NCBI GenBank assembly: GCA_017512095.1
Contig: JAFWHC010000002.1
Location: 1-64,000, forward strand
From: Candidatus Saccharimonadota bacterium
Lineage (GTDB): Bacteria > Patescibacteriota > Saccharimonadia > Saccharimonadales > Saccharimonadaceae
DNA length: 64,000 bases
Reading direction: 5' to 3'
In this document: positions 27,767 to 47,098 of the stretch, in pieces
Layout: each line of letters opens with the position of its first letter
How positions within the stretch are numbered: position 1 is the first letter of the stretch
The notes under the pieces: model-generated
What the model saw: only the letters and a program-made list of their open reading frames with translations
What the model was told of the DNA's origin: nothing
Databases searched by the model: none
Made by a program: the position numbers and the translations under genes

Positions 27767-28804
27767 ATGGAAGATAATTCCGATAAGACAGAAAATGCAG
27801 AAGCGCAAGAGACGCAGGAAGTTCAGAGAGGGTTTTTTGATGTATTCCAATGGGCGAATGAGGTTGATGAAGTTAAAAACAACGTGAGTGTTGAGCTGTT
27901 TTTGTTTAATAAAAACTATACGCCATATAAAGTTCGATATAGCGATAAGCTGACGGCGAGCGTTAAAGCGATGTTTATGCAAGAAGCGACGAGCTATATT
28001 ATCAAAGAAGCGGACAAGGGGCTTGAGTGTCGCGAGTATGAAAAAAGTGACGGCGAAGACAAGGTGATTTATCGTACGAAACTTGAGAATGTTGGACGGG
28101 CGGAGACGCTGATCCATCTCATTGAAAACGAATATAAGGACATTGATTTCTTTTCTGATAACGAATATGAGTTTAAGAAGGTGAAGGGGATTATCGCGAA
28201 GTTTAGCTATCCTGGCGGGGAAGATGGAACGAAGACGTTTTATATCGCAAAGGCGCTGTCGGCGAGCGCGGCGCTCAAAGGTGCGACAAGCTGGGAGCTG
28301 AACGGAGAGAGCTTTGAGCCATTTTCGGCGGAAGTTGCAATTAAAATGCCGGAAGATAATCAGGTAGCGATTATTGACGGGAATATTGTGGTGTTTAATC
28401 AGACGAAGTTTGAAGCGTTGTTCCAGTATGATTATAAGTCGCAGGTGCTGGCTGAGGCGAAGGCGAGGGAACTGCAGGAGAAATATAAACTCAGCTTTTC
28501 TGAAGGTTTGACGCTTGATGTGCTCCTTCAGGACAAGAAGCCGCTTCTCAAGAAGATTCAGAATATCGATATTAATGAGGCGATGACGCAAGAGCAGATG
28601 CTTGATTATTCGGACGAGATGCAACTTGACCTCATGACCGATGACGATAAGTCGATTATTATCATGGACGATAAAGATTTGACGATGTTTGTAAATCTTT
28701 TAAATGAGGATTATTATGTGTCGCCGGTGACGGGGCTAAGATACGAAATAAAATCCAAAAAATTGATGGGGGAGCCGGACGGTGGCGAGCCGCCACGTGG
28801 ATAG
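27767..28804 (+). CDS. DUF4868 (KwaB-like) protein
   Basis: A 345-residue soluble protein. It resembles the DUF4868 family, which includes KwaB of the Kiwa anti-phage system: an acidic N-terminus, a middle with EVAIKMPEDNQVAIIDGNIVVFNQTKFE, and the closing MFVNLLNEDYYVSPVTGLRYEIKSKK, which is the family's typical C-terminal pattern. No KwaA-like four-helix membrane gene lies beside it. AGAGAGGTAAT precedes the ATG, and a TATACT box lies upstream. The assignment is from recognition of the C-terminal pattern, not from a search. Other DUF4868 proteins have no known role. Confidence 0.6.
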   Translation: MEDNSDKTENAEAQETQEVQRGFFDVFQWANEVDEVKNNVSVELFLFNKNYTPYKVRYSDKLTASVKAMFMQEATSYIIKEADKGLECREYEKSDGEDKVIYRTKLENVGRAETLIHLIENEYKDIDFFSDNEYEFKKVKGIIAKFSYPGGEDGTKTFYIAKALSASAALKGATSWELNGESFEPFSAEVAIKMPEDNQVAIIDGNIVVFNQTKFEALFQYDYKSQVLAEAKARELQEKYKLSFSEGLTLDVLLQDKKPLLKKIQNIDINEAMTQEQMLDYSDEMQLDLMTDDDKSIIIMDDKDLTMFVNLLNEDYYVSPVTGLRYEIKSKKLMGEPDGGEPPRG

Positions 28805-28826
28805 TTATCCACAGGGTTGTGGAAAA
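28805..28826. promoter_or_regulatory. Inverted pair of DnaA boxes
   Basis: TTATCCACA (28805-28813) is a perfect consensus DnaA box; TTTTCCACA on the minus strand (28818-28826) is a second, four bases away. A third (TTTTCCACA, 30898-30906) lies just before the DGR target gene. Without dnaA, dnaN or an AT-rich unwinding region nearby, I do not call an origin. Confidence 0.5.
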
Positions 28827-28842
28827 GTTGAAGGAAAATTCT

Positions 28843-28874
28843 AAAAAATCAGGCCGAAAAGGGCTTGATTTTTT
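28843..28874 (+). terminator. Terminator after the DUF4868 gene
   Basis: AAAAAATCAGGCC-GAAAA-GGGCTTGATTTTTT hairpin. The -35 box of the next promoter lies in its right arm. Confidence 0.88.
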
Positions 28875-28893
28875 AATTGAAAATGGTTATACT
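28865..28893 (+). promoter_or_regulatory. Promoter of the 28.9-kb structured RNA / cell-wall cluster leader
   Basis: TTGATT (28865-28870), 17-base spacer, TATACT (28888-28893). It drives a transcript with no ORF for about 370 bases. Confidence 0.68.
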
Positions 28894-28899
28894 AATAGC

Positions 28900-29231
28900 A
28901 AGTAGAAAGTCATAAACAAAAACGAAAAACAAAAAACTATCTACGAACGAACATTAATATCTGTTTGAGAACGGTTAACAGGGAGTTTTGGCGCGCGGTT
29001 ACCTTTTGCGATACGCGTCAACAAAATCGTCTGTACATTCTAAAACTAACACCTCCCAATTAAAACTCTAAAGACGGTTTCGGCTCTAGGGTCGGGATTA
29101 GTCTTAGCAACCATTTACACAATAATCTCTCAACGGCCACAAGATTCTTGTGGTGGATCTAGTGTAAAAGGAACAAACAAAAATCGAACAAAAACAAAAA
29201 CGCTGAAATTTCTTGTTAAGCGTTCTCAAAC
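28900..29231 (+). ncRNA. Candidate structured RNA or long leader upstream of rsmH
   Basis: GTTTGAGAACGGTTAAC (28963-28979) pairs with GTTAAGCGTTCTCAAAC (29215-29231), 16 of 17 positions, closing a domain of about 270 bases. Inside, TTGGCGCG pairs with CGCGTCAA, GGGAG with CTCCC, and CCACAA with TTGTGG. A-rich, unpaired stretches flank the domain. There is no coding potential. It could be a stable RNA or the leader of the division cluster; mraZ, which usually occupies this position, is absent. I could not match it to RNase P, tmRNA, SRP or 6S RNA. Confidence 0.45.
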
Positions 29232-29272
29232 GAACGAAAGAGCATGTCACTATATGTTATAATATAGGAGAT

Positions 29273-30151
29273 ATGGAAGAACTTCATAAACCCGTGTTAT
29301 TATCAGAAGTGCTCGAGGTTCTCAAGCCTCAGACCGGTGAGTCGTATTTGGATCTCACGGCTGGGTATGGAGGACATGCGAGTGAAGTTTTGGATTTGAC
29401 ACAGAATTATAAAGGGTCGGTCCTTGTTGACCGAGATAAGTTTGCGACGGAGTATCTTAGAGAGAAGTACCAGAATGGTGAATCTCCAAGAATCGTGAAT
29501 AAAGATTTTTATAGTTCAGTGTTAGACTTAGTAGAGTGTGGTAAGACTTTTGATTTGATACTGGCGGATTTTGGAGTGTCTTCCCCGCAATTAGACAGAC
29601 AGGAACGTGGTTTTTCTTTCCTTAAAGATGGGCCGCTCGACATGAGAATGGACAGGACGCAGGAGTTGACGGCGGAGAGGGTGGTTAATCATTACCCAGA
29701 ATGGAAGCTTGCAGAGATTTTTGTGAAGTATGGAGAGGAAAGACCAGGCAATGCGAAAAGATTAGCTCGAGAGATTGTACATGCGCGGCCGTTTAGGACG
29801 ACGCTTCAGCTCGCGGATTTTGTAAAAAGTAAATCGCGATATTCAAAGACGCATCCGGCGACGCGAGTGTTTCAGGCGATACGGATTGAAGTGAACGATG
29901 AACTTGGGCTGATTGAGAAAACGTTGCCGCTTCTTACGAAGGTTTTAAAACCCGGAGGGAGAGTCGCGATTATTACGTTTCATAGTCTTGAGGACCGGCT
30001 GGTTAAGCAGTATTTTAAGGAAGCGAGTGAGTATGGAGAGGAGTCAGAACTGGAAGTTTTAACAAAGACGCCAATTGTTGCGGGCGAAATTGAATTAGTT
30101 AACAATCCTAGGGCTAGGAGTGCGAAACTGAGAGCTGCGAGACGAAGATAA
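29273..30151 (+). CDS. rsmH: 16S rRNA (cytosine1402-N4)-methyltransferase RsmH (MraW)
   Basis: A 292-residue methyltransferase that modifies C1402 of 16S rRNA in the decoding centre. HKPVLLSEVLEVL opens the protein, YLDLTAGYGGHASEVL (about residues 24-39) is the SAM-binding motif I, and the C-terminal half shows HPATRVFQAIRIEVNDELG and ITFHSLEDRLVKQYF, both diagnostic. It is the usual first or second gene of the division and cell-wall cluster. I chose ATG 29273, with TATAAT nine bases upstream and a GGAG in between. Confidence 0.94.
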   Translation: MEELHKPVLLSEVLEVLKPQTGESYLDLTAGYGGHASEVLDLTQNYKGSVLVDRDKFATEYLREKYQNGESPRIVNKDFYSSVLDLVECGKTFDLILADFGVSSPQLDRQERGFSFLKDGPLDMRMDRTQELTAERVVNHYPEWKLAEIFVKYGEERPGNAKRLAREIVHARPFRTTLQLADFVKSKSRYSKTHPATRVFQAIRIEVNDELGLIEKTLPLLTKVLKPGGRVAIITFHSLEDRLVKQYFKEASEYGEESELEVLTKTPIVAGEIELVNNPRARSAKLRAARRR

Positions 30152-30259
30152 ACTGCGGAAAGATGCAAGAAGTAGAGTGTGGAGCAACTTGAAGTAGAGT
30201 GAGCCTTTAACCTTAGATTTGTTAAAACAAAAAATAAAACAAAAATAAAAGGAGGCTAT

Positions 30260-30325
30260 ATGCCAAAGCAAATCGTTGTGTCGAATAAATCCCGTGCACA
30301 AAAAATCAAGGTACATTTCTTCTAA
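30260..30325 (+). CDS. Possible 21-codon leader peptide
   Basis: MPKQIVVSNKSRAQKIKVHF plus a final Phe. A perfect AAGGAGG lies seven bases before the ATG, stronger than that of most genes here. Its stop codon lies inside a 15-bp hairpin (30315-30348), so a ribosome reaching the stop would melt that hairpin. This is the layout of a leader ORF controlling a downstream gene, here the FtsL-like gene. The basic peptide itself is not recognised. Confidence 0.45.
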   Translation: MPKQIVVSNKSRAQKIKVHFF

Positions 30326-30348
30326 ACCCGAGCGGGTTTAGGAGAAAT
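30315..30348 (+). promoter_or_regulatory. 15-bp hairpin covering the leader-peptide stop codon
   Basis: ATTTCTTCTAAACCC pairs without a gap (one G-U) with GGGTTTAGGAGAAAT around the loop GAGC. No T run follows, so it is not a simple terminator. Confidence 0.7.
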
Positions 30349-30365
30349 GGGGGGATGGGGGAGAC

Positions 30366-30495
30366 ATGGCCCGAAAAGGGCTGCCACAACTATAATCTGG
30401 TTGCGGAGTCTTAAAACAAAGAGTGTGTTAATTTATGACCTTCCCGAGGCGGGAGCTGTGGTTACTTATAGCTCTGCCTAGCTTGACCGCCTCGG
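30366..30495 (+). promoter_or_regulatory. Further structured leader elements before the FtsL-like gene
   Basis: GGCCC-GAAAA-GGGCT forms a small hairpin near 30366-30381. CCGAGGCGG (30444-30452) pairs perfectly with CCGCCTCGG (30487-30495), enclosing GAGCT/AGCTC. Together with the upstream hairpin, the 400 bases between rsmH and the FtsL-like gene are strongly structured and A-rich at their ends; no other gene is visible. Confidence 0.5.
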
Positions 30496-30552
30496 ACTAA
30501 GTTACATGCATCAAACATAAAAACAAAAAAAGGAAAAATTGCGAGAAAAAAA

Positions 30553-30870
30553 ATGCGAGAGTCTAGTTCTAGTTGGGTCCGGAATCGGAATACTGTCCGC
30601 CATACCCCGAAAACCTTAGGAAGTGTGTCGCAGAGTGTGATTTTAGGGATCTTGGTTCTTGTGATTGGTTTGATTTATGTAACTCAGGGAACAAAGGCGA
30701 CGAGTTATGATTATGAGCTGAGCGAGATTGAGACGGAGATTGCGGAGCTTGAGGCGAAGAAAGAGGATTTGGCGGTTGAGAGGGAAAAGTTGAAGAGTAT
30801 TGCGACGGTGAACACGAGCGAAGTGGCGGCGAATATGCAGGCTGGGCAAGTTTCTGGCTACGCCGAGTAA
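30553..30870 (+). CDS. FtsL/DivIC-like division protein
   Basis: A 105-residue bitopic protein: a short basic N-terminus, one membrane helix (SVILGILVLVIGLIYVTQG, about residues 28-46) and an external coiled coil rich in Glu, Lys and Leu (ELSEIETEIAELEAKKEDL). This layout and the position between rsmH and the transpeptidase gene match FtsL, which scaffolds FtsB and FtsQ in the divisome. Sequence conservation in this family is very low, so the call rests on layout and context. Confidence 0.72.
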   Translation: MRESSSSWVRNRNTVRHTPKTLGSVSQSVILGILVLVIGLIYVTQGTKATSYDYELSEIETEIAELEAKKEDLAVEREKLKSIATVNTSEVAANMQAGQVSGYAE

Positions 30871-30979
30871 GTATTTGTATTTTGGTGAACTTCACGCTTT
30901 TCCACAATTAAAGCACTGGGTTTTTAGAGTGAACAACGTGGTTTTCTTTTAGCAACCCGAAAAAAATCGGGAAATTGTC

Positions 30980-31009
30980 TTGACACCCACGACATAAGCG
31001 GGTTATAAT
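30980..31009 (+). promoter_or_regulatory. Promoter of the DGR target gene
   Basis: TTGACA (30980-30985), 18-base spacer, TATAAT (31004-31009). Both boxes are consensus. The predicted start falls at or one base before the ATG at 31017. Confidence 0.82.
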
Positions 31010-31016
31010 AGAGCTT

Positions 31017-34000
31017 ATGAATAGGAGGACAATGAAAGCTAATAGGAAGCTTGGAAAAATAAAAGAAACTATTATTTTTGGGCGGTTGCTCAGAGGAAGT
31101 CTGACTGCGACCGCCGTTTTTGTGATGGCGTTTGTGTTTATGCCATACATTTTGGCGGAAGCCAATGCCGCGAACCGTGTGGATGCGGATATTCGCTGGA
31201 GCGCGATTGACCTTACGTTTGACCCGGACGTCGAGGCGACGAATGATGCGTTGGTGACGGCAGCGGAAGCAGCTGGAAAAACGGGCGGAAAGACGATTGA
31301 ACAGATGACGGATGAGGAACGCCAAGCTGCAATTGCACAGTTGACAGATGAAGAACGTCAAACCGTGATTAGCACAACGCTCGCCGATTCGACGCATGGC
31401 GATGTGGACTTTGGAACGATTGTGCCGACGGCAAAGCTTAATGGTAACTATGGCACTATGGTTGTTAAGAAGAAGACGATTGGCGTAACAACTCGCGGAA
31501 AATATTATGCAGTTTATCTTTCTATGTTGAACAACGATGTGACTGCTGGTGACGGGTCGGCATCTGCTCTTACTTATGAAGGTGCGAGCGATACAACCAT
31601 GAAGATTTCCTCCACTTCTGGTACTTGGGATGCGCCGAAGACTGTCATTGAGAACGGCAACAGCGGTTGGGGCTATATGGTGCCAGGAACCGCAGTAAAG
31701 AAAAGTGACGGAACAACTACAAGCGCCTTTGGCGGTTTGACTAGGACCAGCGTTGCAACTACTTTTGAAGGACTTCTCGATCAAAGTATTTATAGTACTA
31801 ACGGCGCAGCTTACACTTCCTCCATCTGGGCAGGTGTGCCAGCCAAATCTGCACCGCAGCAAATCTGGAAAGGTCTAAACTCAGCGGGTTATTCCAGCCA
31901 AGATACCTTTGACGTGTATTATGCAATCAACGTCGATAACGATGTAATGGCGGGAAGCTATGAGAACCAAATTGTTTATACTGCTCTTGCTTCGGCAGAA
32001 TCACTCGATTCCGTCTCTAACAACTTGACCCGTAATGTTAAGTTCGGGATGACCGGAACGGTGCAGACGATTTATTTCGATCTTGCGCAAACGGCGGCAA
32101 ATATCGTAAACGGAGATACGGTTAAAGTTCATCTTGTGCCTCACGATGTGATGGCTGCGGCGAACTATGATATTAGCCAGCTTTCTGCAACTGATAAACA
32201 GACTTATTCTGGCGACGCATACGAATGTGAAGTCGACCCGAGCAGCTTTACGACTGTAACGACACAGCAAGCTGTGACGGAAGGTTCACTTAGCTCGATT
32301 CAGTGCGAGATGCCGGTGGCGCAAGAAGCACAGGAATATGACTACTGGCTGGAAGTGACTGGTTATGGGTTTAACTATGCTAGCAAGATTGATAACGGCA
32401 ATGAACCGGCGTTCGTCTATGCCGGGCTTCAGACAAAACGCTCGAACGGCACTTTCTATGTAACGACCATGCAGGACATCTCTTCGGGGGTTTGCTCGAA
32501 CACAAACATTTGGAAAGATGGACTCGGTTCAGAGGCGAAGCTTTACAATCCGGACGGTACGACGGAAATCAAGACTGTGGCAGAAGGCGGTCAATTGCCT
32601 AATAACTATGCTACAGCAACTACGGCTGATGGTATCGGTACCTTTGCCCTTAGAGATACTCGCGATGGTAAGCGCTATACAGTGCGACGTCTCGCTGATG
32701 GTAACTGTTGGATGGTGCAGAACCTTAACCTTGACCTTTATTCCGGTATGACTCTCACTGCGAGCGATACCGACCTTAACTCACGTGATTCTTGGACACT
32801 TGCCGTGGACGCAGAGAAGACGAATGACGAAATCACAAACAATATGACCGCTGAAGGAAGTCGAACATGGATTGCTGATACTGGTTCTGCCTCGAAAGCT
32901 TGGCAAACCGCGCACGGTGTAGAAACGGTGACTTTGAAGCAATATACATATACCGAACCGACAGGTGGAACAACTCCTGGAGAAGGTGAAGGTGAAGAAA
33001 TCGATTCTAATTGGTCAGAGTTGACGCTTGCTGAATGTACCGGTGGCACCGCACAAAGGCCATGCTTTGCGACGGCGACGTCAGTTGCATACAATAAGGT
33101 TATTGCTACGCAAGCGGATGTTGACGCAAATCGTGCAACGGCAGTCGGGGAGATAATGACTACGCCAGTCAGCGTAACCGCGGCAGTTGCTCTTGCGGAT
33201 GGTTACAAGACAGACGATACAACGGGTTCGCCAGTTCGCGGGTTCGCTGCAGGTGCGTATTACGCCACGGTGGCTTATCAAGTTCGTAAACTAAACGCGC
33301 CGAACCTCACGACTTCAGGTAATGCCTACTCGTCGGAGAATATTGGGTCGACCTGTACGTATAGCTATTATAACGATCATTTGAAGGAAGGCACAGCCTG
33401 TGTCATCGAGACGAGCGGCGAACCGATGATTACACAATTTTCTAACGATGGCACCAGTGTTGGGATGGACTCGACGGAGATTCCGAGGCTTGCAATCAGC
33501 AAAGACCATCTCGGCAATACGATTGATTTTATGAACAACACGAGCACGAGTACTGCCTTCGAATACTCCGACGCAACCTATACATTGTTCCCGATGAGCA
33601 CAACTGGTGCGGATTATCGCTGGGCAAGAAACGGACGCGATGGTGCACACGTGATGGATACCGGACCAATGTACTTTAACGTTAGCTATACTGAAGAAGA
33701 AACGACCGTTGACGAAGAAACAAAGACTTATTACAGAGTGACTGCTGGTAACGGTAATGCTCGCTGTGCAAACTTTGGTACGGTGCAAGGAACTTTGACT
33801 GACCCGGCGACTGGAAATCCTTATAACTTTGTGTCCTGCATGGATGCGGAAGATAACACGCTTGCGATGGCAGATACGAGAACGGACGGCAACTGGTATA
33901 ACTGGTATGCAGCGGTGGCGGGTAGCACGCATCCGTCAAACGGCGCAACTTCCAGAGCGGCGGACTCCATCTGCCCGAAGGGCTGGAAGCTGCCATCTAA

Positions 34001-34331
34001 TAACGGCGACCAGGACTTCTATGGATTAATTGATGGCGGGTATAGTATTGGTAATAACACCCGCGGTAACCAAGCGACTAATACCTTAACTTCCAATGCT
34101 ACAGATGCAAAGATACGTGTGTTCCCGCTCTCCTTCCTGCGTAGTGGCTACTACTTCTGGAACTCTGGCGGCCTGAACACTCGCGGTAGCTACGGCTACT
34201 ACTGGTCGGCTGGTAGCGCCTCTGCGACTAACTCGTACGGCCTGAGCTTCTACTCTACCCTCCTGCACCCGCGGAGCAGCAACTACAAGGGCTACGGCTT
34301 CGCAGTGCGGTGCGTCGCGGCGGCGGAGTAG
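31017..34331 (+). CDS. DGR target: large membrane-targeted protein with variable C-type-lectin-like end
   Basis: A 1104-residue exported protein. A basic N-terminus and one hydrophobic segment (SLTATAVFVMAFVFMPYIL, about residues 37-55) form a signal peptide or anchor. From about residue 550 it shows the FISUMP-type pattern (RYTVRRLADGNCWMVQNL), then SICPKGWKLPS (about 980) and a final GYYWSAG...YGFAVRCV, which places the end in the formylglycine-enzyme/C-type-lectin fold used by DGR targets. Residues 1045-1093 are the variable part. The ATG at 31017 coincides with the predicted transcript start; an in-frame ATG at 31032 follows AGGAGG but with only three bases between. No sorting signal is present, so the N-terminal helix probably anchors it. 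A ligand-binding adhesin role is inferred. Confidence 0.85.
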   Translation: MNRRTMKANRKLGKIKETIIFGRLLRGSLTATAVFVMAFVFMPYILAEANAANRVDADIRWSAIDLTFDPDVEATNDALVTAAEAAGKTGGKTIEQMTDEERQAAIAQLTDEERQTVISTTLADSTHGDVDFGTIVPTAKLNGNYGTMVVKKKTIGVTTRGKYYAVYLSMLNNDVTAGDGSASALTYEGASDTTMKISSTSGTWDAPKTVIENGNSGWGYMVPGTAVKKSDGTTTSAFGGLTRTSVATTFEGLLDQSIYSTNGAAYTSSIWAGVPAKSAPQQIWKGLNSAGYSSQDTFDVYYAINVDNDVMAGSYENQIVYTALASAESLDSVSNNLTRNVKFGMTGTVQTIYFDLAQTAANIVNGDTVKVHLVPHDVMAAANYDISQLSATDKQTYSGDAYECEVDPSSFTTVTTQQAVTEGSLSSIQCEMPVAQEAQEYDYWLEVTGYGFNYASKIDNGNEPAFVYAGLQTKRSNGTFYVTTMQDISSGVCSNTNIWKDGLGSEAKLYNPDGTTEIKTVAEGGQLPNNYATATTADGIGTFALRDTRDGKRYTVRRLADGNCWMVQNLNLDLYSGMTLTASDTDLNSRDSWTLAVDAEKTNDEITNNMTAEGSRTWIADTGSASKAWQTAHGVETVTLKQYTYTEPTGGTTPGEGEGEEIDSNWSELTLAECTGGTAQRPCFATATSVAYNKVIATQADVDANRATAVGEIMTTPVSVTAAVALADGYKTDDTTGSPVRGFAAGAYYATVAYQVRKLNAPNLTTSGNAYSSENIGSTCTYSYYNDHLKEGTACVIETSGEPMITQFSNDGTSVGMDSTEIPRLAISKDHLGNTIDFMNNTSTSTAFEYSDATYTLFPMSTTGADYRWARNGRDGAHVMDTGPMYFNVSYTEEETTVDEETKTYYRVTAGNGNARCANFGTVQGTLTDPATGNPYNFVSCMDAEDNTLAMADTRTDGNWYNWYAAVAGSTHPSNGATSRAADSICPKGWKLPSNNGDQDFYGLIDGGYSIGNNTRGNQATNTLTSNATDAKIRVFPLSFLRSGYYFWNSGGLNTRGSYGYYWSAGSASATNSYGLSFYSTLLHPRSSNYKGYGFAVRCVAAAE

Positions 34332-34376
34332 TCCTCGCCCCTCTGGGCCGGTTCCTCTCTTTCCGGTCCCCCAGGT
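34131..34376 (+). repeat. DGR variable region (VR)
   Basis: The last 66 codons of the target gene plus 45 bases after its stop. It is identical to the template at 34734-34979 except at 19 positions, all of which are A in the template: nine A to T, six A to G, four A to C. They alter 15 codons between 34149 and 34295, nearly all AAC in the template (to Tyr, Phe, Thr, Ala, Gly, Ser, Leu, His). The invariant 3' part is GC-rich and holds a CTGGG...CCCAG hairpin, in the place of the initiation-of-homing element of known DGRs. Confidence 0.95.
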
Positions 34377-34733
34377 TTCTGGAACGACGTTCGGAAAGCA
34401 GCTGGAAAGGAAAACAAAAAAGCTCTTTGACACAAAAACTGAAGAATCTCTCCGGTCGGCGTGAGCCGACCGGGGTTTAGAGGCTTCAGCCCCATCCTGG
34501 AGAACCTATGGGGTCCAGGACGGAGCTGACGTCTCTAAGAGAGGCGTCTTGTTCTTCTACGGAGCGTCCTGGCTACACACATGACAGCTCCAAGAAAAAA
34601 GAACTTAGAGAAACCAGGAGCCCACTCTTATTTAGAGTTCTATGGGAGAGCAATCTCCTTGGTCGGAGCCTACGGGCGCTTGACCTGAATGAGCGACTCC
34701 TTGGGCGGATGCCCGCTCAGTGCGCTTCGTTGG
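34377..34733 (+). other. Structured spacer between VR and TR
   Basis: 357 bases without a convincing gene. CCGGTCGGC-GTGA-GCCGACCGG (34452-34473) is a perfect 9-bp stem with a GNRA loop. AGCCCCAT can pair with ATGGGGT, or TCCTGG with CCAGGA, as alternative folds near 34488-34520. GACGTCTC pairs with GAGAGGCGTC (34528-34548). TGAGC...GGGC-GGAT-GCCC-GCTCA (34690-34719) ends 14 bases before the template. It probably belongs to the DGR RNA. No terminator lies between the target gene and the template, so read-through is possible. Confidence 0.6.
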
Positions 34734-34979
34734 TCCTTCCTGCGTAGTGGCAACTACAACTGGAACTCTGGCGGCCTGAACAATCGCGGTAGCAACGGCA
34801 ACTACTGGTCGGCTGGTAGCAACTCTGCGACTAACTCGTACAACCTGAACTTCAACTCTACCAACCTGAACCCGCGGAACAACAACAACAAGGGCAACGG
34901 CTTCGCAGTGCGGTGCGTCGCGGCGGCGGAGTAGTCCTCGCCCCTCTGGGCCGGTTCCTCTCTTTCCGGTCCCCCAGGT
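34734..34979 (+). repeat. DGR template region (TR)
   Basis: A copy of the VR placed 603 bases downstream, same orientation. Between 34752 and 34898 it holds 18 AAC codons and one AAT (47 adenines in all); AAC cannot mutate to a stop by changes at its two adenines, a hallmark of DGR templates. It ends with the same GC-rich segment and hairpin as the VR. It is followed 17 bases later by a bidirectional terminator, so the template RNA has a very short 3' part. Confidence 0.95.
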
Positions 34980-34995
34980 CTCTCTAGTTCGGTGT

Positions 34996-35034
34996 AATAA
35001 TCCCCGTTAGAATAGCGGGGATTATTGTTTTTTT
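34996..35034. terminator. Bidirectional terminator between TR and RT
   Basis: AATAATCCCCG and CGGGGATTATT form a perfect 11-bp stem; T run on the plus side, and the A/T-rich left flank serves the minus side. It ends both the template transcript and the convergent RT transcript. Confidence 0.88.
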
Positions 35035-35040
35035 GGTCTT

Positions 35041-36189
35041 TTATTTGTTGTAGCTCCAGCCAAAGTCTTCAAAAAGTTCAGTTAGGTATTTAGTGTCGTT
35101 GAGATTTTTGAGAAGGCCGAGATAGGAAACCACGGATTGAAGGTCTTTGTGCCCGGCTTCAAATTCACGGATACAGGTGCGGAAGTTTTTGTCGATGCGC
35201 GGACCGGTGACGATATGGCCGGGATAAATCACGGCGCCAAGAAAGGGAACACCACGCTCGATAGGCTGGATGTAGCGTTTTTTAGGATGGAGCGTGAGCC
35301 CGAGGTCTTTGAGAAAGGACTCGATTTTTTTGATGTCGGCGAGGGCTTTGTTCAAATCTTCTTTTTTGACGAAAAAGTAGAAGTCGTCGACGTAACGGCC
35401 ATAATGTTTGTAGCCGAGAGTGATGGTCATATAGCGGTCGAGAGCGGAGAGATAGATGTTTGAGAGGAGCTGGGATGAGAGATTGCCGATGACGATGCCT
35501 TTGCCAGGCGGTTGGCAGAAAAGACTCTTGGCGCGAGGAAGATCGCGCCAGTCGCGCGGGCTGCCTTTTTTGATGACGTCTTTAACTGGATTGTCGAAAA
35601 TGATTTTAGACCAGAGAAAACGGAGCGTGTCGTAGAGCTGGTCTTTTTCTGGGAACTGACAATCAAGTCCCCAACAGACGCGTTCAAAAAGCCGGTCACG
35701 CGAGAGAGACATGAAATAACCGCGAATGTCGAGTTTGATGACATAAGTCGGGGTCTTGTAGTTGTTTGAGGCGGAGCGCATATGCTTTGAGAGACGGTAA
35801 ATGCCGTACCAAGTGCCCTTGCCGATGCGACAAGAGTAACAGTCGGGAATGAGTCGCCGATCCCACCATTCGGCGACGCTGTTGAAAAGAAAGTGATGGA
35901 CAACACGATCGCGGAAGGGGGCGGCGAAGATTTCCCGGATGACTGGTTTTCTGGTGACGAAGGCGATGCCTCGAGAAGGAATATAAGTGCGATCGACGAT
36001 GCTGTCTCGGAGGTTAATTAGGTTTTCTTGCGCGTTCATTTCGAAAATATGTTCGTCGCCCGTTGTGCGCTTGCCCTTGCGGGCGGCAAGGTAAGCAAGG
36101 CCAAGCTCGACGAGGAGCCAGTCGCGGAAGGGAAGATTGCTTTCTTGGAAAGAGGTGAGGCTGTCGGGGTTTGCGATATGGCTAGACAC
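35041..36189 (-). CDS. DGR reverse transcriptase
   Basis: A 382-residue reverse transcriptase that makes the adenine-mutagenised cDNA of the template. Motif A is VIKLDIRGYFMSLS (catalytic Asp), the motif before the palm is GIVIGNLSSQLLSNIYL with the IGNxxSQ signature of DGR enzymes, motif C is YGRYVDDFYFF (catalytic Asp pair), and ERGVPFLGAVI is the thumb-side motif. There is no maturase or endonuclease domain, which argues against a group II intron, and the retron-specific NAXXH/VTG motifs are not seen. It starts at a GTG that overlaps the accessory gene by eight bases (GTGTCTAG), so translation is coupled. Confidence 0.93.
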   Translation of the reverse strand: MSSHIANPDSLTSFQESNLPFRDWLLVELGLAYLAARKGKRTTGDEHIFEMNAQENLINLRDSIVDRTYIPSRGIAFVTRKPVIREIFAAPFRDRVVHHFLFNSVAEWWDRRLIPDCYSCRIGKGTWYGIYRLSKHMRSASNNYKTPTYVIKLDIRGYFMSLSRDRLFERVCWGLDCQFPEKDQLYDTLRFLWSKIIFDNPVKDVIKKGSPRDWRDLPRAKSLFCQPPGKGIVIGNLSSQLLSNIYLSALDRYMTITLGYKHYGRYVDDFYFFVKKEDLNKALADIKKIESFLKDLGLTLHPKKRYIQPIERGVPFLGAVIYPGHIVTGPRIDKNFRTCIREFEAGHKDLQSVVSYLGLLKNLNDTKYLTELFEDFGWSYNK

Positions 36190-36994
36190 GAGATTTGCTC
36201 CCTGTGCTGCTGATTTTTAGGTGGGCACGTTTAATATGGCGAATTAGAGCGATACAATCGTCCCAAATGTGAGTGATGGGGGCGATGGGGCACATTTTGC
36301 GTTCGACCATGGTGTTGAGATTGTAAGAAACGTGGCGAGCATAGGAATAGATTTTCTGCCAGCCGGTAGGTTCGGAAGTTAGGCCGTCGTTCATTTCGTA
36401 ATAGGTGGTGAACATGGCGTGAGCGAGGTTGCAGGTTTCTAGGCCGAGACATTCGCGGTCGAATGCGTTGAGCTTGCGGACCTCCTCATAAATTCGAGAG
36501 TCGAGGTGGCGAATGTAGCTGAAAGCTTCTGGGTCGAGGGAAGATTTGGGGCGGACGACGGCAAGGGCTTCTTCGCGGGATTTGATAAGGCTGGCGCGGA
36601 GCTCGTTTAGTGTTTCTAGAGAGAGTGAGATGTTGAGCTCGTAGACGACGACGCGTTTGCTAACGCGTTTTTCTTTGAGGACCTGGGCGAGGGTGAGGCG
36701 TTTTTCTAGAACGTTGAGGCCGCGAACGCAGATTACACCTTCGGGAAAAGTGGCGGTGGAGAAGTCAGTGTCGGACTGAATTGAGGGGTGAAGGTTGAGG
36801 ATTTTTTGGCAGACCTCGAAATAGTAAAGTAAAAGAGAGTTGCCGCCGATTTTGTGCCATTCGCCTTTGGCATCGCTTTGAAAAGCGATGATGCGGGATG
36901 TGTTTTGTTTTTCTAGCTCGATGACTTTTGTTTTTACGGCATCATAAAGCTGGCGCGAAGCGCGCAGCGAAGATTTTGAAAGTTGTTCGTTCAT
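36182..36994 (-). CDS. DGR accessory protein, Avd-like helical bundle with N-terminal extension
   Basis: A 270-residue protein. The C-terminal half has four predicted helices (around SRIYEEVRKLNAFDRE, LETCNLAHAMFTTYYEM, WQKIYSYARHVSYNLNTM and THIWDDCIALIRHIKRAH) and a basic tail, the layout of Avd, the four-helix subunit that works with DGR reverse transcriptases. Avd is normally about 125 residues; the extra 150 N-terminal residues (including IGGNSLLLYYFEVCQKIL and VICVRGLNVLEKRL) are not recognised. It is upstream of and coupled to the RT gene. AAGGAG precedes the ATG. The call rests on position and helix layout. Confidence 0.65.
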   Translation of the reverse strand: MNEQLSKSSLRASRQLYDAVKTKVIELEKQNTSRIIAFQSDAKGEWHKIGGNSLLLYYFEVCQKILNLHPSIQSDTDFSTATFPEGVICVRGLNVLEKRLTLAQVLKEKRVSKRVVVYELNISLSLETLNELRASLIKSREEALAVVRPKSSLDPEAFSYIRHLDSRIYEEVRKLNAFDRECLGLETCNLAHAMFTTYYEMNDGLTSEPTGWQKIYSYARHVSYNLNTMVERKMCPIAPITHIWDDCIALIRHIKRAHLKISSTGSKSRV

Positions 36995-37045
36995 TTTTCT
37001 CCTTTTTAAATTTGTTTGGGGTCGCAGTCCAAATCTAAATCTAAA

Positions 37046-37061
37046 AGGAGTAATTACTCCT
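37046..37061. promoter_or_regulatory. Perfect 16-bp palindrome in the accessory/RT leader
   Basis: AGGAGTAATTACTCCT, about 50 bases upstream of the accessory ATG and downstream of its -10 box. It could be a repressor site, or in RNA a hairpin whose arm mimics or masks a ribosome site. Confidence 0.6.
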
Positions 37062-37103
37062 CACGTACGGAAAGTGCTTCTGAGCGAAAGCCTAGATAGT
37101 TAT

Positions 37104-37148
37104 ATTATAGCAGAATCGGAATGTTTTTACTGCTATGGAAGTAGAATC
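37104..37148 (-). promoter_or_regulatory. Promoter of accessory/RT operon with operator copy 1
   Basis: On the minus strand TATAAT lies at 37104-37109. The -35 position is occupied by a copy of the repeat GTTTTTAC-n10-GTAAAAAC (here 37123-37148, right half degenerate: GTAGAATC) rather than a consensus hexamer. The same repeat occurs twice upstream of the neighbouring ATPase promoter, so an activator or repressor may act on both. Confidence 0.55.
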
Positions 37149-37179
37149 TTTTGTGAGGAGGTATAGACGGGGTATGTGA

Positions 37180-38394
37180 CTAGAGGTCGTTTAAGATGAA
37201 ATCGGGGAGGTATCGATGAATGATGCCGTTTTGGTTTTTCGAGAAAGAAGTATCTTTGTCGAGTGAGACAACGTATTTGGGGAAGTTGTCGTCTATACCT
37301 TCGAAAGCGCTAAACTCGCGTTCGGTTGTGGCGGAGTCGGTGAGCTTGTATGAAACTTGCATGTAGAGTTTTTCATGGTTTTTTTCGGCGATAAAGTCAA
37401 TCTCTCTTTCGCCGTTTTTTCCGAGATTTACGGTGTAGCCTTTGGAAATTAGCTCGTGATAGACGAGGTTTTCCAAGATTCCGCTTAAATATGAGCTGTT
37501 GCGTCCGTTAATGGCGTACAATAATCCAATGTCGCCAAGGAAGAATTTTTCTTGAGTTTTTAGGAAGGCTTTGCCACGAAGGTCATAGCGGGATACACGT
37601 TCGATTAGAAAAGTTTCTTCGAGCCAGGTTAGGTAATTGTAAATTGTTTCGGGGTTTAGGCTACGGCGCTCGTTTTTTAAGTATTCGCTGATGCTGTTGG
37701 CGGAGAATATATTACCAATATTATCGAAGATGTATTTGACTATGCGGGATAAAAGCTCTGTGTTGCGGATATTGTGGCGCTCGACGAGATCGCGGAAGAG
37801 AATTGAGGAATAAATATCTCGAACAATTTGGTCGCATTGCGCGATGCCTTGTTCGGCGATGTGGAGTGCGGGGAAACCACCTTTTTCGAGGTATTCTGTG
37901 AATAAAGTTTCGATGTTACTAACGTCTTCTCCGCGAGCGCGTTTGAAGTCGATAAATTCGGAGAAATTTAAAGTGGAGATGCGAATGTTGATGTAGCGGC
38001 CGGTTAGGAAGGTGGAAAGTTCTCTCGATAGGAGCTTCGAGTTGCTTCCGGTGAGGTAAATGTCGGTATCGCCTTCAGCGTAGAGAGCGCTGATAACCTC
38101 ATCCCATTTTTCGATATTCTGGATTTCGTCGAGAAGAAAATAGCGTTTGCCGTCTTTGTAGAGCTGGCGAACGAGGGCCAGAAAGCTGGACTTGTCTTGT
38201 ATGTCGGTATATTCGAGAGTGTCAAAGTTGATATGGACGATTTGGTCGGGTTTCTTGCCTTGTTCCAAAAGGAGATTTTGGACACATTCCAAAATTGTTG
38301 ATTTGCCGGCGCGGCGAATCCCGACAAGGATCTTAATTTGAGGCTTGTCGATGAACGGGGTGATTTGGTCTAGATAAAGTGGTCTCGTAATCAT
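37180..38394 (-). CDS. AAA (AAA_14) ATPase with DUF4143 domain
   Basis: A 404-residue protein of a widespread but functionally unknown family. Walker A GIRRAGKST (about residues 25-33), Walker B YFLLDEIQ (about 90-97), sensor-like YLTGSNSKLLS, a winged-helix middle (ISEYLKNERRSLNPETIYNYL) and a C-terminal restriction-endonuclease-like fold (ILENLVYHELISKGY, REIDFIAEK, YMQVSY). It has a full promoter (TTGACA at 38436-38441, TATTAT at 38413-38418, minus strand), a GGAG ribosome site, and two operator-like repeats upstream. It lies directly behind the DGR RT operon, in the same direction. Confidence 0.88.
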   Translation of the reverse strand: MITRPLYLDQITPFIDKPQIKILVGIRRAGKSTILECVQNLLLEQGKKPDQIVHINFDTLEYTDIQDKSSFLALVRQLYKDGKRYFLLDEIQNIEKWDEVISALYAEGDTDIYLTGSNSKLLSRELSTFLTGRYINIRISTLNFSEFIDFKRARGEDVSNIETLFTEYLEKGGFPALHIAEQGIAQCDQIVRDIYSSILFRDLVERHNIRNTELLSRIVKYIFDNIGNIFSANSISEYLKNERRSLNPETIYNYLTWLEETFLIERVSRYDLRGKAFLKTQEKFFLGDIGLLYAINGRNSSYLSGILENLVYHELISKGYTVNLGKNGEREIDFIAEKNHEKLYMQVSYKLTDSATTEREFSAFEGIDDNFPKYVVSLDKDTSFSKNQNGIIHRYLPDFILNDL

Positions 38395-38412
38395 GGTTGC
38401 TCCTTTTCTTTT

Positions 38413-38441
38413 ATAATAGCAAAAAGATAGGGTTTTGTCAA
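38413..38441 (-). promoter_or_regulatory. Promoter of the 37180-38394 ATPase gene
   Basis: Minus strand: TTGACA, 17-base spacer, TATTAT. The repeat copies 2 and 3 begin one base upstream of the -35 box. Confidence 0.8.
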
Positions 38442-38442
38442 T

Positions 38443-38510
38443 GTTTTTACTGCTATGGAAGTAAAAACTATTTGATTTTTGGAAGTTTTTACTGCTATGG
38501 AAGTAAAAAC
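38443..38510. repeat. Operator-like repeats, copies 2 and 3
   Basis: Two identical 26-base copies (38443-38468 and 38485-38510, 42 bases apart) of GTTTTTAC-n10-GTAAAAAC, where the ten-base centre is TGCTATGGAA. The half-sites are inverted, as for a dimeric regulator. Copy 1 lies at 37123 beyond the ATPase gene, in the accessory/RT promoter. Confidence 0.8.
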
Positions 38511-38534
38511 TTTTGGGAAGATGGTAAAATCTAT

Positions 38535-38568
38535 TTTACTATCTTTATAAAAGTAGTAAGATAGTAAA
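38535..38568. promoter_or_regulatory. Inverted repeat upstream of the 38622 ATPase gene
   Basis: TTTACTATCTT (38535-38545) and AAGATAGTAAA (38558-38568), perfect 11-bp arms with a 12-base centre, about 30 bases before the TATAAT of the 38622 gene. Possible operator. Confidence 0.6.
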
Positions 38569-38621
38569 GTGAGCTTTACGTTTTGCGAAACATGTGCTAT
38601 AATGCTTATAGAAAGGGAAAT

Positions 38622-39824
38622 ATGATAGAAAGAACTGAATATCTTGATAAACTCAAGAGCCTTCGAGAGAAGAAGGTTATTAAGATTGCCACTGGCATCC
38701 GTCGTTGTGGTAAGTCAACTTTGTATAGCCAATTTGTGGATTATCTTAAGCAAGATGGTGTAGATGAAGCGCAGATTACTCATTTTCGATTGACGGATGG
38801 CGAACATGATTTTATTACCACTCATTCGGATTTATTTGCTTTCGTAAAAAAGCGTCTTGTCCCTGGTAAAATGAATTATATTTTTCTTGATGAAGTCCAG
38901 GAGGTAAAAGAATTCCAAAAAGCCGTTAATAGTCTTTTTGAGCTACCTAACACCGACGTTTACATTACTGGTTCTAACTCCAAACTTTTGTCCAGTGAGT
39001 TCGCCACCTACCTGACCGGTCGTTACGTGGAGATTAAAATGCTTCCTTTGTCATTTAAGGAATATCTTTCTGTCAAAGGTAATACCGATATCCTACGTAA
39101 ATATAATGATTATATCACTACCACATCTTTTCCGGCGGGCATGGATTTTGATACCCCTTCTGATATTCGCTTTTATCTCGAAGGTATTTATAGCTCGATT
39201 GTCCTTAAAGATGTAGTTGCTAGACATCACATTTCTGACGTTGCTAGCTTGAACCGGGTCGTTAAGTTTCTTTATGATAACATTGGCAACCCGAACTCTT
39301 CAAAGTCCATCGCTAATGCTCTCAATGAATCTAATAAGTCTATCTCTGCCCCAACGGTAGATAGCTATATTGAAGCTCTCAAATCTGCCTACGTTGTCTA
39401 TGAAGCTCAACGTTATGATATCAAAGGAAAAGAATACCTCAAGGCTCCTACAAAATATTATATTCCTGATATCGGACTTCGCTTCTATCTCCTTGGCAGT
39501 AAGCCGTCGGACACTGGCAGAATTCTAGAAAATGTAGTTTTTCTTGAACTTTATCGCCGTGGCTATGAAATTGCTATCGGAAAGGTCAATAATCACGAAG
39601 TTGATTTTATTGCCACCGACGAGAACCGCGAACCGATATACATTCAGGTCGCTGAAGATGCTAGGGATCCGGAGACTCTAAAGCGTGAACTTGCTTCGCT
39701 CCAGGAGATTAATGATAATTATCCAAAGGTTCTCTTAAGTCTTGATGAGACGCCATATGCCTCCTATGGTGGCATTAAAAAGCTCAATGTGCTCGATTGG
39801 CTTGTCGGCAATGTGTCTTTCTAG
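38622..39824 (+). CDS. AAA (AAA_14) ATPase with DUF4143 domain, second copy
   Basis: A 400-residue paralogue of the divergent neighbour: Walker A GIRRCGKST, Walker B YIFLDEVQ, TGSNSKLLSSEFATYLTGR, and nuclease-like VFLELYRRGYE and HEVDFIATDE. TATAAT at 38598-38603 and AGAAAGGGA precede the ATG at 38622. The codon use differs clearly from neighbours: many CGT, CTT, ATC and ACC codons instead of the G-ending and purine-rich codons of the flanking genes, which suggests recent arrival. It separates the DGR block from the cell-wall genes. Confidence 0.88.
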   Translation: MIERTEYLDKLKSLREKKVIKIATGIRRCGKSTLYSQFVDYLKQDGVDEAQITHFRLTDGEHDFITTHSDLFAFVKKRLVPGKMNYIFLDEVQEVKEFQKAVNSLFELPNTDVYITGSNSKLLSSEFATYLTGRYVEIKMLPLSFKEYLSVKGNTDILRKYNDYITTTSFPAGMDFDTPSDIRFYLEGIYSSIVLKDVVARHHISDVASLNRVVKFLYDNIGNPNSSKSIANALNESNKSISAPTVDSYIEALKSAYVVYEAQRYDIKGKEYLKAPTKYYIPDIGLRFYLLGSKPSDTGRILENVVFLELYRRGYEIAIGKVNNHEVDFIATDENREPIYIQVAEDARDPETLKRELASLQEINDNYPKVLLSLDETPYASYGGIKKLNVLDWLVGNVSF

Positions 39825-39852
39825 ACATTTTGTGTGATATAATAAGCGTAAG

Positions 39853-41607
39853 ATGAATGACGAGACGCAGAAGAAGCGGTTAAAAGTTTTGAAGTATGCG
39901 CTTTTTGTGGTTGCTGGGGTGATTTTGGTGCGGTTGTTTATGATTCAGATTATTCAGAAAGAAGAATGGGTGGCAAAGGCGGAAGCGCAGCATACGTTTG
40001 AGAACACGATTAAGGCGAAGCGGGGGGAGATTTATATGATGGACGGGAGTGAGCCGGTCGCGGTTGTGATGAACGAGAAGGCGTGGACGGTGATTTTGGA
40101 CCCGATGGTTGCGGAAGAGAAAGAGCTGGCTGATGCGGTTTTTACGGAAGAGATGAAGCCGTATTTGACGGTTGATTCGGCGACGGAAGTTTTGAAAGAC
40201 CGGACGCGGAGATATTTTGTGGTGGCGAAAAATGTGCCGAGAAAACTTGCGCTCGAGCTGCGCGAGAAAGAAGTGACGGGAATGATAATGCAGGAGGGGA
40301 CAAAGCGAGTGTATCCCGAAGGGACGCTTGCGGCGAGACTGCTTGGGTTTGTAAATATGGACGGGGACGGACAGTATGGTGTGGAAGGGTCGCTCGATGA
40401 GGAGCTTAAGGGCAAGGACGGAAGACTGAAAACGATTGCGGATGTGAATAATGTGGCGCTTTCGATTGGGAAGGATAATATCCGGGTGCCGGCGGAAGAT
40501 GGGAAAAATGTGGTGCTGACGGTCGACCGGAATGTGCAGGCGAAGGTGGAGGAAATTTTGCAACGGAGGATGACGGAATTTGGAAAAGACCAGGCGAGCG
40601 CGTTAGTGATGGACCCGAGGACGGGGGAGATTTTAGCGATGGCGAATTTGCCGGGATATGACCCGGGGAACTATGGGGAAGTTGAGGATGCGAGCGTATA
40701 CGTAAATAGGGTAACGGATGACCCGTATGAGCCAGCAAGCGTGTGTAAGTCGTTTACGTTTGCGACGGGGATTGAACTCGGAGTTTTGGATGCGAATACG
40801 ATGTTTTATAACAACGGATACGAAGTGATTGATGGTTGGCAAATAAAGAACTCGACGTATGGGCAGGCGAATTTGCTTGGGCCGACGTCGATACAAAATG
40901 CGTTAAATTGGAGCTTGAACACGGGGAGCATTCATGCGCTTAAGTTGATTGGCGGAGATGCGACGCAAATAAATGAGCAGGGAAGAAAGACGTTATATGA
41001 TTTTTATGTGAATCATTTTGGGCTCGGGAAGGAGACGGGGATTGAACTTTATGAGGCGACGGGGCTGATAAACGATCCGGTGGAGGGGGACGGGCGCGAT
41101 TCGCTCTATGCGAACATGACGTTTGGGCAAAATATGTTGGTGACCATGCTCCAAGTTGCGAGCGGATATTCGGCGCTCGTGAATGGCGGGGAATATCATC
41201 ATCCGACGATTGTGAAGGGGTATATGGAGGGCGGGGTTTTGGTTGAGAAAGAGCGAGCCGGGGCGGCGTGGCGCGCGGTATCGGAAGACACGAGTCGGCA
41301 GATGCGTGAGATGCTTTGGGGAACGAGGAGTTTGATGCGGGCGACGGGAGTGGACCGAGATGGGTATTTTGTGGGAGGGAAGACGGGGACGGCGCAGGTG
41401 ATTCGAGATGGGGCGTATTCGATGGATGAATGGGTGGCGACGTATGTTGGGTTTGGCGGGGCGACGGGAGAAATGCCGGAGTATCTCGCGATGGTCCGGA
41501 TTTGGAAGGACGGGGAAACAACGGGTGCGGAGCAATATGCGCAGCCGGTGTTTAACGATATTTCTGATTTTATGATTGATTATTTGAAAATTAAGCCCGG
41601 GGCGTAG
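39853..41607 (+). CDS. ftsI: Class B penicillin-binding protein (FtsI/PBP2-like transpeptidase)
   Basis: A 584-residue peptidoglycan transpeptidase. A short cytoplasmic tail and one membrane helix (ALFVVAGVILVRLFMIQII, residues 16-34) precede a dimerisation domain and the catalytic domain with SVCK (nucleophile Ser, in YEPASVCKSF), SLN (NWSLNTG) and KTG (VGGKTGTAQ). With FtsW it makes septal wall. TATAAT ends eight bases before the ATG and there is no Shine-Dalgarno. It resumes the cell-wall cluster after the DGR block and its stop codon overlaps the -10 region of mraY. Confidence 0.9.
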   Translation: MNDETQKKRLKVLKYALFVVAGVILVRLFMIQIIQKEEWVAKAEAQHTFENTIKAKRGEIYMMDGSEPVAVVMNEKAWTVILDPMVAEEKELADAVFTEEMKPYLTVDSATEVLKDRTRRYFVVAKNVPRKLALELREKEVTGMIMQEGTKRVYPEGTLAARLLGFVNMDGDGQYGVEGSLDEELKGKDGRLKTIADVNNVALSIGKDNIRVPAEDGKNVVLTVDRNVQAKVEEILQRRMTEFGKDQASALVMDPRTGEILAMANLPGYDPGNYGEVEDASVYVNRVTDDPYEPASVCKSFTFATGIELGVLDANTMFYNNGYEVIDGWQIKNSTYGQANLLGPTSIQNALNWSLNTGSIHALKLIGGDATQINEQGRKTLYDFYVNHFGLGKETGIELYEATGLINDPVEGDGRDSLYANMTFGQNMLVTMLQVASGYSALVNGGEYHHPTIVKGYMEGGVLVEKERAGAAWRAVSEDTSRQMREMLWGTRSLMRATGVDRDGYFVGGKTGTAQVIRDGAYSMDEWVATYVGFGGATGEMPEYLAMVRIWKDGETTGAEQYAQPVFNDISDFMIDYLKIKPGA

Positions 41608-41621
41608 TATAATATAGTAAT

Positions 41622-42653
41622 ATGTGGAAAACAGAACTTAACAACGAAATGTTTTATGGCTTGATTTTGGCGCTTGGGGCGTTTTTGCTGGCGATGTTTT
41701 TGACGCCGGTTTATACCTATTTTGCGTACAAATATAAGTTTTGGAAAAAGCAGAAAAAGACAACGGCGGACGGGTCGGCTTTGCCGATTATGACGAAGTT
41801 GCATGCGCATAAGTTTAAACGACATTTCCCGACGATGGCGGGGATTATTGGTGTGGTTGTGGTTGCGGTTGTGACGATTGTTTGCAATCTTGACCGTGGG
41901 CAAACTTGGCTTCCGCTCGCGGGGTTTCTTGGTGGAGCAGCGGTTGGATTTATCGACGATTTGATTAACGTGTTTGGGAGCGGGGAAGGAGCAGCGGGGC
42001 TGCGCGCGGGCTCGAAGATGTTGCTTATTTCTATTGTGGGGGCGGCGCTTGGATGGTTCTTTGCGACGAAGTTGGGTTGGACGGAAGTCATGGTGCCGTT
42101 TGTGGGGAGTTTTGATATTGGCGTGGTTGGGATGATTTTCTTGTTTACGTTTGCAGTGGTGGCGACGGGGAATGCGACGAATATTTCTGATGGGCTTGAT
42201 GGGCTTGCGGGCGGACTAATGATGATTGCGTATGGAGCGTACGGTGTGATTGCGCTGTTCCAGGGGCAGTGGATGCTGTTTGCGTTTTGCATGACGGTGG
42301 TTGGCTGGCTGTTGTCTTATATTTGGTTTAACGTGCCGCCGGCGCGGTTTATGATGGGAGATACGGGTTCGTTTGCGCTTGGGGCTGGGCTTGGTGTGGT
42401 GGCGATGATGACGAATGCGTTTTTGCTGTTGCCGGTGATTGGGCTTATGCTTGTTATCGAGGCGGGGTCGTCATTGATTCAGATGGCGTCGAAGAAGTTT
42501 TTCCATCGGAAGATTTTTATTTCTGCGCCGATTCATCATCATTACGAAGCGAAGGGGTGGGGAGAAGCGAAGATTGTGATGAGGTTTTGGGTTATAGCCG
42601 GCATTGCTGCGGTGCTCGGGATGTTTATTGCGAGCGCTTCAGGAATCGCATAA
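41622..42653 (+). CDS. mraY: Phospho-N-acetylmuramoyl-pentapeptide transferase
   Basis: A 343-residue integral membrane enzyme with about ten helices that joins phospho-MurNAc-pentapeptide to undecaprenyl phosphate, giving lipid I. Signatures: GFIDDLINVFG (about residues 108-118), NATNISDGLDGLAGG (about 184-198) with the catalytic Asp, MMGDTGSFALG (about 243-253) and HHHYEAKGW. TATAAT lies eight bases before the ATG, just behind the ftsI stop, so a leaderless mRNA is likely despite the operon position. Confidence 0.95.
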   Translation: MWKTELNNEMFYGLILALGAFLLAMFLTPVYTYFAYKYKFWKKQKKTTADGSALPIMTKLHAHKFKRHFPTMAGIIGVVVVAVVTIVCNLDRGQTWLPLAGFLGGAAVGFIDDLINVFGSGEGAAGLRAGSKMLLISIVGAALGWFFATKLGWTEVMVPFVGSFDIGVVGMIFLFTFAVVATGNATNISDGLDGLAGGLMMIAYGAYGVIALFQGQWMLFAFCMTVVGWLLSYIWFNVPPARFMMGDTGSFALGAGLGVVAMMTNAFLLLPVIGLMLVIEAGSSLIQMASKKFFHRKIFISAPIHHHYEAKGWGEAKIVMRFWVIAGIAAVLGMFIASASGIA

Positions 42654-42687
42654 TTTTGGCGTTCTTCATGGTATAATTATAAGCATA

Positions 42688-47067: not shown

Positions 47068-47098
47068 AAAATTAGGGAACCATTAATTCCCTAATTTT
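47068..47098 (-). terminator. Terminator after the VirD4-like gene
   Basis: AAAATTAGGGAA and TTCCCTAATTTT form a perfect 12-bp stem across the stop codon; the minus-strand right arm ends in TTTT. Confidence 0.8.

Follow-up and report, generated by a model that had tools for sequence, protein, structure and literature searches.

Two nearly identical repeats whose differences are confined to adenines lie beside a reverse transcriptase (RT) gene read from the opposite strand. This raised the question of whether the locus is a complete diversity-generating retroelement (DGR), and whether its unusual layout is a property of the element or an accident of this genome. The locus was studied in a stretch of 64,000 nt (contig JAFWHC010000002.1, positions 1 to 64,000), referred to here as the window. 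The host, a Saccharibacterium, belongs to the Nanosyncoccus genus, and its genome (G000) comprises 625 kb in 8 contigs and is 92% complete. With a probability of about 0.9, we consider the element to be a complete DGR of this host, belonging to a type that is specific to the genus and has its template antisense to the RT. As read from the sequence, the locus contains a pair of template repeat (TR) and variable repeat (VR), a DGR RT gene, a gene for an accessory protein in which an Avd domain is predicted, a target gene, a structured leader and a terminator. The DGR is genuine, and its genus-wide architecture and RNA leader are of greater interest than the TR/VR pair.

Repeat pair and target gene

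A direct repeat was located at 34131-34380 and 34734-34983 on the forward strand, with a start-to-start spacing of 603 nt and a gap of 357 nt. The upstream copy is the VR (34131..34376) and the downstream copy the TR (34734..34979). The initial annotation had described two 246-base copies 603 bases apart, and these were found as described. Within the 246 bases there were 19 mismatches, every one an A in the TR (9 A>T, 6 A>G and 4 A>C), and our recount gave the same result as the earlier one. Template adenines were changed at 19 of 52 positions and other bases at 0 of 194 (Fisher p = 7e-15). The earlier claim that no non-A position differs is thus right for the 246 bases; a single C/T difference at 34377/34980 falls just outside that span, and the homology goes on to 34380. 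The number of altered AAC/AAT codons, 15 of 19 (18 AAC, 1 AAT), was also unchanged on recount. Adenines of AAY triplets were changed at 19 of 38 positions and other adenines at 0 of 14 (p = 7e-4). No third copy of the repeat and no other VR was found in the window's genome beyond chance-level short matches.

Ordinary gene duplication followed by selection for diverse residues, with no reverse transcription involved, might be proposed for such adenine-specific differences. Since the changed adenines are confined to AAY codons, selection on residues may indeed shape the pattern. Nevertheless, the absence of any change at the 194 non-A positions and the recurrence of the same pattern in 64 loci refute this proposal in practice. 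A DGR RT gene and an Avd-fold gene are adjacent, and the TR has no evident coding role. We regard duplication with selection as having a negligible chance of being correct, and read the two repeats as the TR and VR of a DGR.

The product of the target gene (31017..34331, forward strand) is 1104 aa long and has a hydrophobic segment in its N-terminal part and, in its C-terminal part (residues about 943-1101), a Fib_succ_major/FISUMP domain. The domain matched PF09603 (E 7e-10) and TIGR02145 (E 1e-12, over the curated cut-off), and it covers the VR. The gene is intact with the VR at its 3' end in the window, and a genus-wide check agreed with this. The initial annotation was right to place the upstream copy in the 3' end of this gene; the copy does not end with the gene, as had been stated, and extends 45 bases past the stop codon (34329-34331). 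The protein is probably exported. A sequence search with the FISUMP domain, made as a test for a C-type-lectin or Ig-like fold, gave no solved relative.

Just 3' of the VR, at the position of the BPP-1 stem-loop, the window has a 4-bp hairpin only. Stems of at least 7 bp followed the VR in 15 of 64 loci and the TR in 3 of 64. A conserved cruciform after the VR was rejected as not general.

Reverse transcriptase and accessory protein

The RT gene (35041..36189, reverse strand, 382 aa) is convergent with the TR, and its stop codon lies 61 nt from the repeat end. The product has an RVT_1 domain and the motifs YVDD and IGNLSSQ, the latter satisfying the motif (L/I/V)GxxxSQ of DGR RTs (PMC3521204). 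It matched phrog_1423 among the PHROG profiles (E 1e-79), and its top match in the PDB was the BPP-1 DGR RT 8ub7 (E 6e-24).

The accessory gene (36182..36994, reverse strand, 270 aa) overlaps the RT start by a few bases. Its product was without a family match in domain and profile searches, and a Foldseek search with the full-length model gave no match with E < 0.001. The AlphaFold (AF2) model, made from 54 aligned relatives, had a pLDDT of 94 and consisted of an N-terminal alpha/beta domain of about 150 residues and a C-terminal four-helix bundle of Avd type (residues about 151-262). When residues 153-262 were compared with the Avd chain of the BPP-1 complex 8ub7, 107 residues were aligned with Z 14.3 and rmsd 2.1. 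Because helical bundles often reach Z up to 13 by chance, the assignment to Avd leans partly on the position beside the RT. The accessory ORF adjoins the RT in 78 of the 80 genome_contigs loci, and in the 2 exceptions the RT is near a contig end. The likeness is one of fold and not of sequence, the bAvd profile being matched by 2 of 54 members with a best E of 0.18. The C-terminal half is thus far a predicted Avd four-helix bundle.

The judgement of the initial annotation that the DGR is complete was correct, as the adenine-specific pair lies beside a DGR-class RT gene and an Avd-fold accessory gene. The opposite-strand RT, the accessory gene, the RNA leader, the terminator and the overall layout were absent from it.

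In structure comparison, domain I of MutS and MSH2 ranked among the best matches of the N-terminal alpha/beta domain but was weak (Z 4.5, tied with unrelated folds), and HHalign against MutS domain I was weak as well (probability 4%, P 0.011). No meaningful match was obtained in a PDB sequence search. Wu et al. 2018 reportedly described a MutS-like DGR accessory protein whose N-terminal domain is a homologue of MutS domain I. For the present protein such a kinship may exist, the likeness being suggestive but weak by fold and by profile. A helix-turn-helix domain (HTH_3) was present in 4 of 54 accessory proteins (alignment A2).

Layout of the locus across the genus

Relatives of the RT were found in 65 genomes of the Nanosyncoccus genus, often two to four in each, and ruminant-gut Saccharibacteria were the source of most of them. 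A first set consisted of 40 loci and the window, and an automatic search found the pair in 37. A second set, mostly overlapping the first, consisted of 80 genome_contigs loci and the window, 65 with a TR/VR pair. Among these 65, the TR was antisense to the RT in 63 and both antisense and downstream in 62, usually within about 110 nt of the RT end; in one exception, L141, it was 1.6 kb away. TR and VR were on opposite strands in 47 loci, where the target precedes the accessory gene on the RT strand (one of the 47, L103, has a short, ambiguous pair). In 15 loci, the window included, the target and VR lie beyond the TR on the TR strand, so that both are antisense to the RT. As a control, 66 IMG/VR viral relatives with a pair were examined. 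The TR was on the RT strand in all 66 of them and upstream of the RT in 65, and the VR was on the RT strand too in 65.

A tree was made of 89 RTs, and the 81 from loci of the genus fell into one supported group (100/97), apart from the same-order relatives with a sense TR. The arrangement of the window needs about 10 changes on this tree, which indicates, as far as the sequences tell, that the target has changed sides repeatedly around a constant core of accessory gene, RT and antisense TR.

It might still be argued that the element is a canonical DGR of BPP-1 type whose RT gene was inverted by an incidental local rearrangement. DGRs with an inverted RT are on record as rare cases (PMC3521204), and the window has TR and VR on the same strand, as they do. 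TR and VR were also both opposite to the RT in 5 of 13 classified loci among the more distant ones sampled. The near-constancy of the antisense TR in the genus (63/65) and the single supported group of 81 RTs nevertheless largely refute an incidental event; moreover, the 47 loci have TR and VR on different strands, and the leader stays with the TR. We consider incidental rearrangement very unlikely and prefer a type peculiar to the genus, in which the template is antisense.

Schillinger et al. 2012 defined a group 4 of 'inverted' DGRs with three elements (Shewanella, Vibrio and Photobacterium) whose RTs cluster together (PMC3521204). As in the window, the RT of this group is on one strand and TR, VR and target are on the other. 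The Nanosyncoccus loci differ in that the antisense TR is fixed across the whole genus and the VR is on the RT strand in most loci. The same authors regarded opposite strands for TR and VR as theoretically possible, and knew of them only for remote extra VRs (PMC3521204). Yan et al. 2019 distinguished 122 patterns of DGR cassettes, with the RT inverted in one of the commoner ones (PMC6642488). Cellular DGRs are known and abundant in CPR bacteria (clade 2 of Roux et al. 2021; PMC8144416). The present loci differ from the more distant Patescibacteria/CPR loci sampled, of which all but one have TR and VR on a common strand and none gave a match to the leader model. DGRs of Patescibacteria/CPR are said to have been treated by Paul et al. 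2017. No literature linking Nanosyncoccus with retroelements was found; the layout may have been noticed earlier in the large surveys (Wu 2018, Paul 2017).

Closer comparison was possible with DGRs of Saccharibacteria from the same order (L283-L287). Like the genus loci, they have the TR beside the RT 3' end and a structured 5' leader (P1, P2 and a UACG-type P3), and their RTs are 49-53% identical. Unlike the genus loci, they have target, RT and TR all on one strand and no accessory gene between VR and RT.

Some single loci departed from these patterns. In L128 (1790-4531) the TR is on the RT strand and precedes the accessory gene, and the VR follows the RT and is on the opposite strand. This looks like the outcome of a flip of the accessory-RT segment between inverted TR and VR, but may also be an assembly effect. 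The closest RT relatives, L076 (68%) and L077 (65%), had no TR/VR pair in the DNA fetched; the variable repeat may have been lost or may lie far away.

RNA leader of the template repeat

Upstream of the window TR, a stretch of 304 nt (34430..34733, forward strand) is predicted by RNA folding to form a structured 5' leader, with a folding z-score of -5.4 and 0 of 100 shuffles as stable. A conserved element within it (34614..34703) has a P1 helix around P2 and a P3 hairpin. P3 carries a UACG loop at 34668-34677, and the P1 of the window contains one C-A mismatch. An Rfam search of window positions 28000-40000 gave no match.

Nine leaders, picked by eye, had a common P1 helix with three covarying pairs. 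A P1-only covariance model, R1, was used to search both strands of 1.08 Mb of locus sequence. The leader of the window, which is part of the seed, scored 48.5 bits in the covariance model. Of the non-seed matches in TR-bearing loci, 9 of 13 sit 7-105 nt upstream of the TR on the same strand; E < 0.01 was reached by the top three non-seed matches only. R1 had no match in 55 control loci. A blind P1-only search was positive in 26 of 61 loci compared with 21 in shuffles, which is not significant, and because P1 by itself is not significant the leader is proposed from R1 and the positions of its matches.

Four of the same-order loci (L283, L284, L286 and L287), in which the TR is sense to the RT, were aligned independently. 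Their leader showed P1 around P2 and a P3 hairpin together with a further long-range helix, and P3 closed on UACG in 2 of the 4. Nine pairs were changed on both sides yet kept, which was equalled by 1 of 500 shuffles. Because these sense-TR loci have the same leader plan, the leader is most likely older than the inversion of the TR and part of the TR unit. The basis for a putative homology between genus and same-order leaders is this common plan, and not a model match.

Probable transcription of the template repeat

No sigma-70 promoter was found before the TR in the window. The target gene reads towards the TR, and read-through from it is a possible source of the TR RNA. In the relatives, exact TATAAT sequences on the TR strand within 400 nt before the TR numbered 51 compared with 13.8 in shuffles, most of them >160 nt upstream. 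In most relatives the TR RNA probably has its own promoter.

An intrinsic terminator in the TR direction (34994..35028, forward strand) begins 15 nt after the window TR. Only 7 of the 61 loci searched, counting the window, have such a terminator, so a short 3' tail with a defined end is no general feature. A long 3' spacer as in BPP-1 was not evident, as the 61 nt to the RT stop codon contain the terminator. Antisense RT mRNA was considered as a hidden 3' spacer and rejected, since no excess synonymous conservation was seen at the RT 3' end.

Homing activity

When 64 distinct genus loci were pooled, 1391 of 3786 template adenines were changed and 105 of 10626 other bases. In AAY triplets the first A was changed in 64% and the second in 40% of cases, compared with 8-10% elsewhere. 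The BPP-1 enzyme shows a strong AAC context effect (PMC12875486), and selection on residues may add to the AAY preference.

Sister loci gave the strongest evidence for repeated homing. The TRs of the near-identical loci L135 and L136 differ at 3 non-A sites, and all three were copied into the respective VRs; the 24 further differences between the VRs are all at template adenines. The same trend was seen in L119/L146 and L131/L137. All three pairs are relatives, of species other than that of the window. As the VR follows changes of the TR yet diverges only at template adenines, homing is taken from these alignments to recur in the DGR family of the genus.

The possibility that the DGR of the window is decayed or silenced, and the pair a fossil of past homing, was also weighed. 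The lack of a consensus promoter before the TR would agree with silencing. Against it, the RT, accessory and target reading frames are all open, no non-A difference exists between VR and TR, and sister loci show repeated homing. A silenced element is improbable in our judgement, though slightly less so than incidental rearrangement. The DGR of the window is genuine and probably active. The initial annotation had inferred probable or recent activity, and for the window's genome this is well supported because no non-A VR/TR difference has accumulated; the sister loci and the pooled genus data agree.

A search of the window's genome, at its 92% completeness, revealed no MutS_I domain, so MutS mismatch repair of homing intermediates may be absent from it.

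Proposed mechanism and comparison with BPP-1

For the window we infer not only activity but also the ends of the RNA and the role of the leader, and the following steps are proposed. The TR RNA, consisting of the leader, the TR and a short tail, would be transcribed convergently to the RT gene and would be bound by the RT and the Avd-domain protein, probably via the folded leader. The TR would then be copied with misincorporation at adenines, mostly in AAY triplets. The cDNA would replace the VR, homing being anchored in the A-poor, pyrimidine-rich 3' end common to TR and VR. The FISUMP-domain protein, which is probably exported, would thereby have up to 19 Asn codons rewritten at its C-terminus, presumably a ligand-binding surface towards the host bacterium or its phages.

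The DGR of Bordetella phage BPP-1 (mtd-avd-TR-brt) shares with the window the adenine-specific transfer from TR to VR, the DGR RT, the Avd-fold partner and the VR at the target C-terminus. In BPP-1 the TR lies between avd and brt, and a structured 3' spacer recruits bRT-Avd and primes cDNA (PMC12875486). The TR of the window is antisense, convergent with and downstream of the RT, whereas that of BPP-1 is upstream on the RT strand. The conserved folded RNA is 5' of the TR in the window, while the structured spacer of BPP-1 is 3' of it. The accessory protein differs from BPP-1 Avd by its additional N-terminal domain of about 150 residues.

A broader idea is offered tentatively, and we think it rather more doubtful than probable. 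In saccharibacterial DGRs a conserved 5' leader fold might recruit RT-Avd and control cDNA synthesis, replacing the 3' spacer. The TR would thus be a free-standing, strand-independent RNA gene that is invertible against the RT. To our knowledge, the mechanism of DGRs is known almost wholly from one phage. The genus offers a natural set, with antisense TR, opposed TR/VR, 5' leader and enlarged Avd-domain partner, that tests which parts are essential, be it the 3' spacer, co-transcription or TR orientation. It also shows that animal-associated episymbionts with small genomes retain between one and four systems for targeted hypermutation. The proteins they act on are probably exported, and such systems could plausibly serve to track the surfaces of host or phage.

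Genomic neighbourhood

The DGR and two AAA_14/DUF4143 genes are embedded in a cluster of division and cell-wall genes (window 29213-45133), with rsmH and an ftsL-like gene on one side and an ftsI-like gene, mraY, ftsW and murG on the other. Just upstream of this cluster is a KwaB-like (DUF4868) gene (27767-28804); KwaB is part of the Kiwa defence system. A 965-aa protein encoded at 47091-49988 weakly matched type IV coupling proteins (TrwB/TraG).
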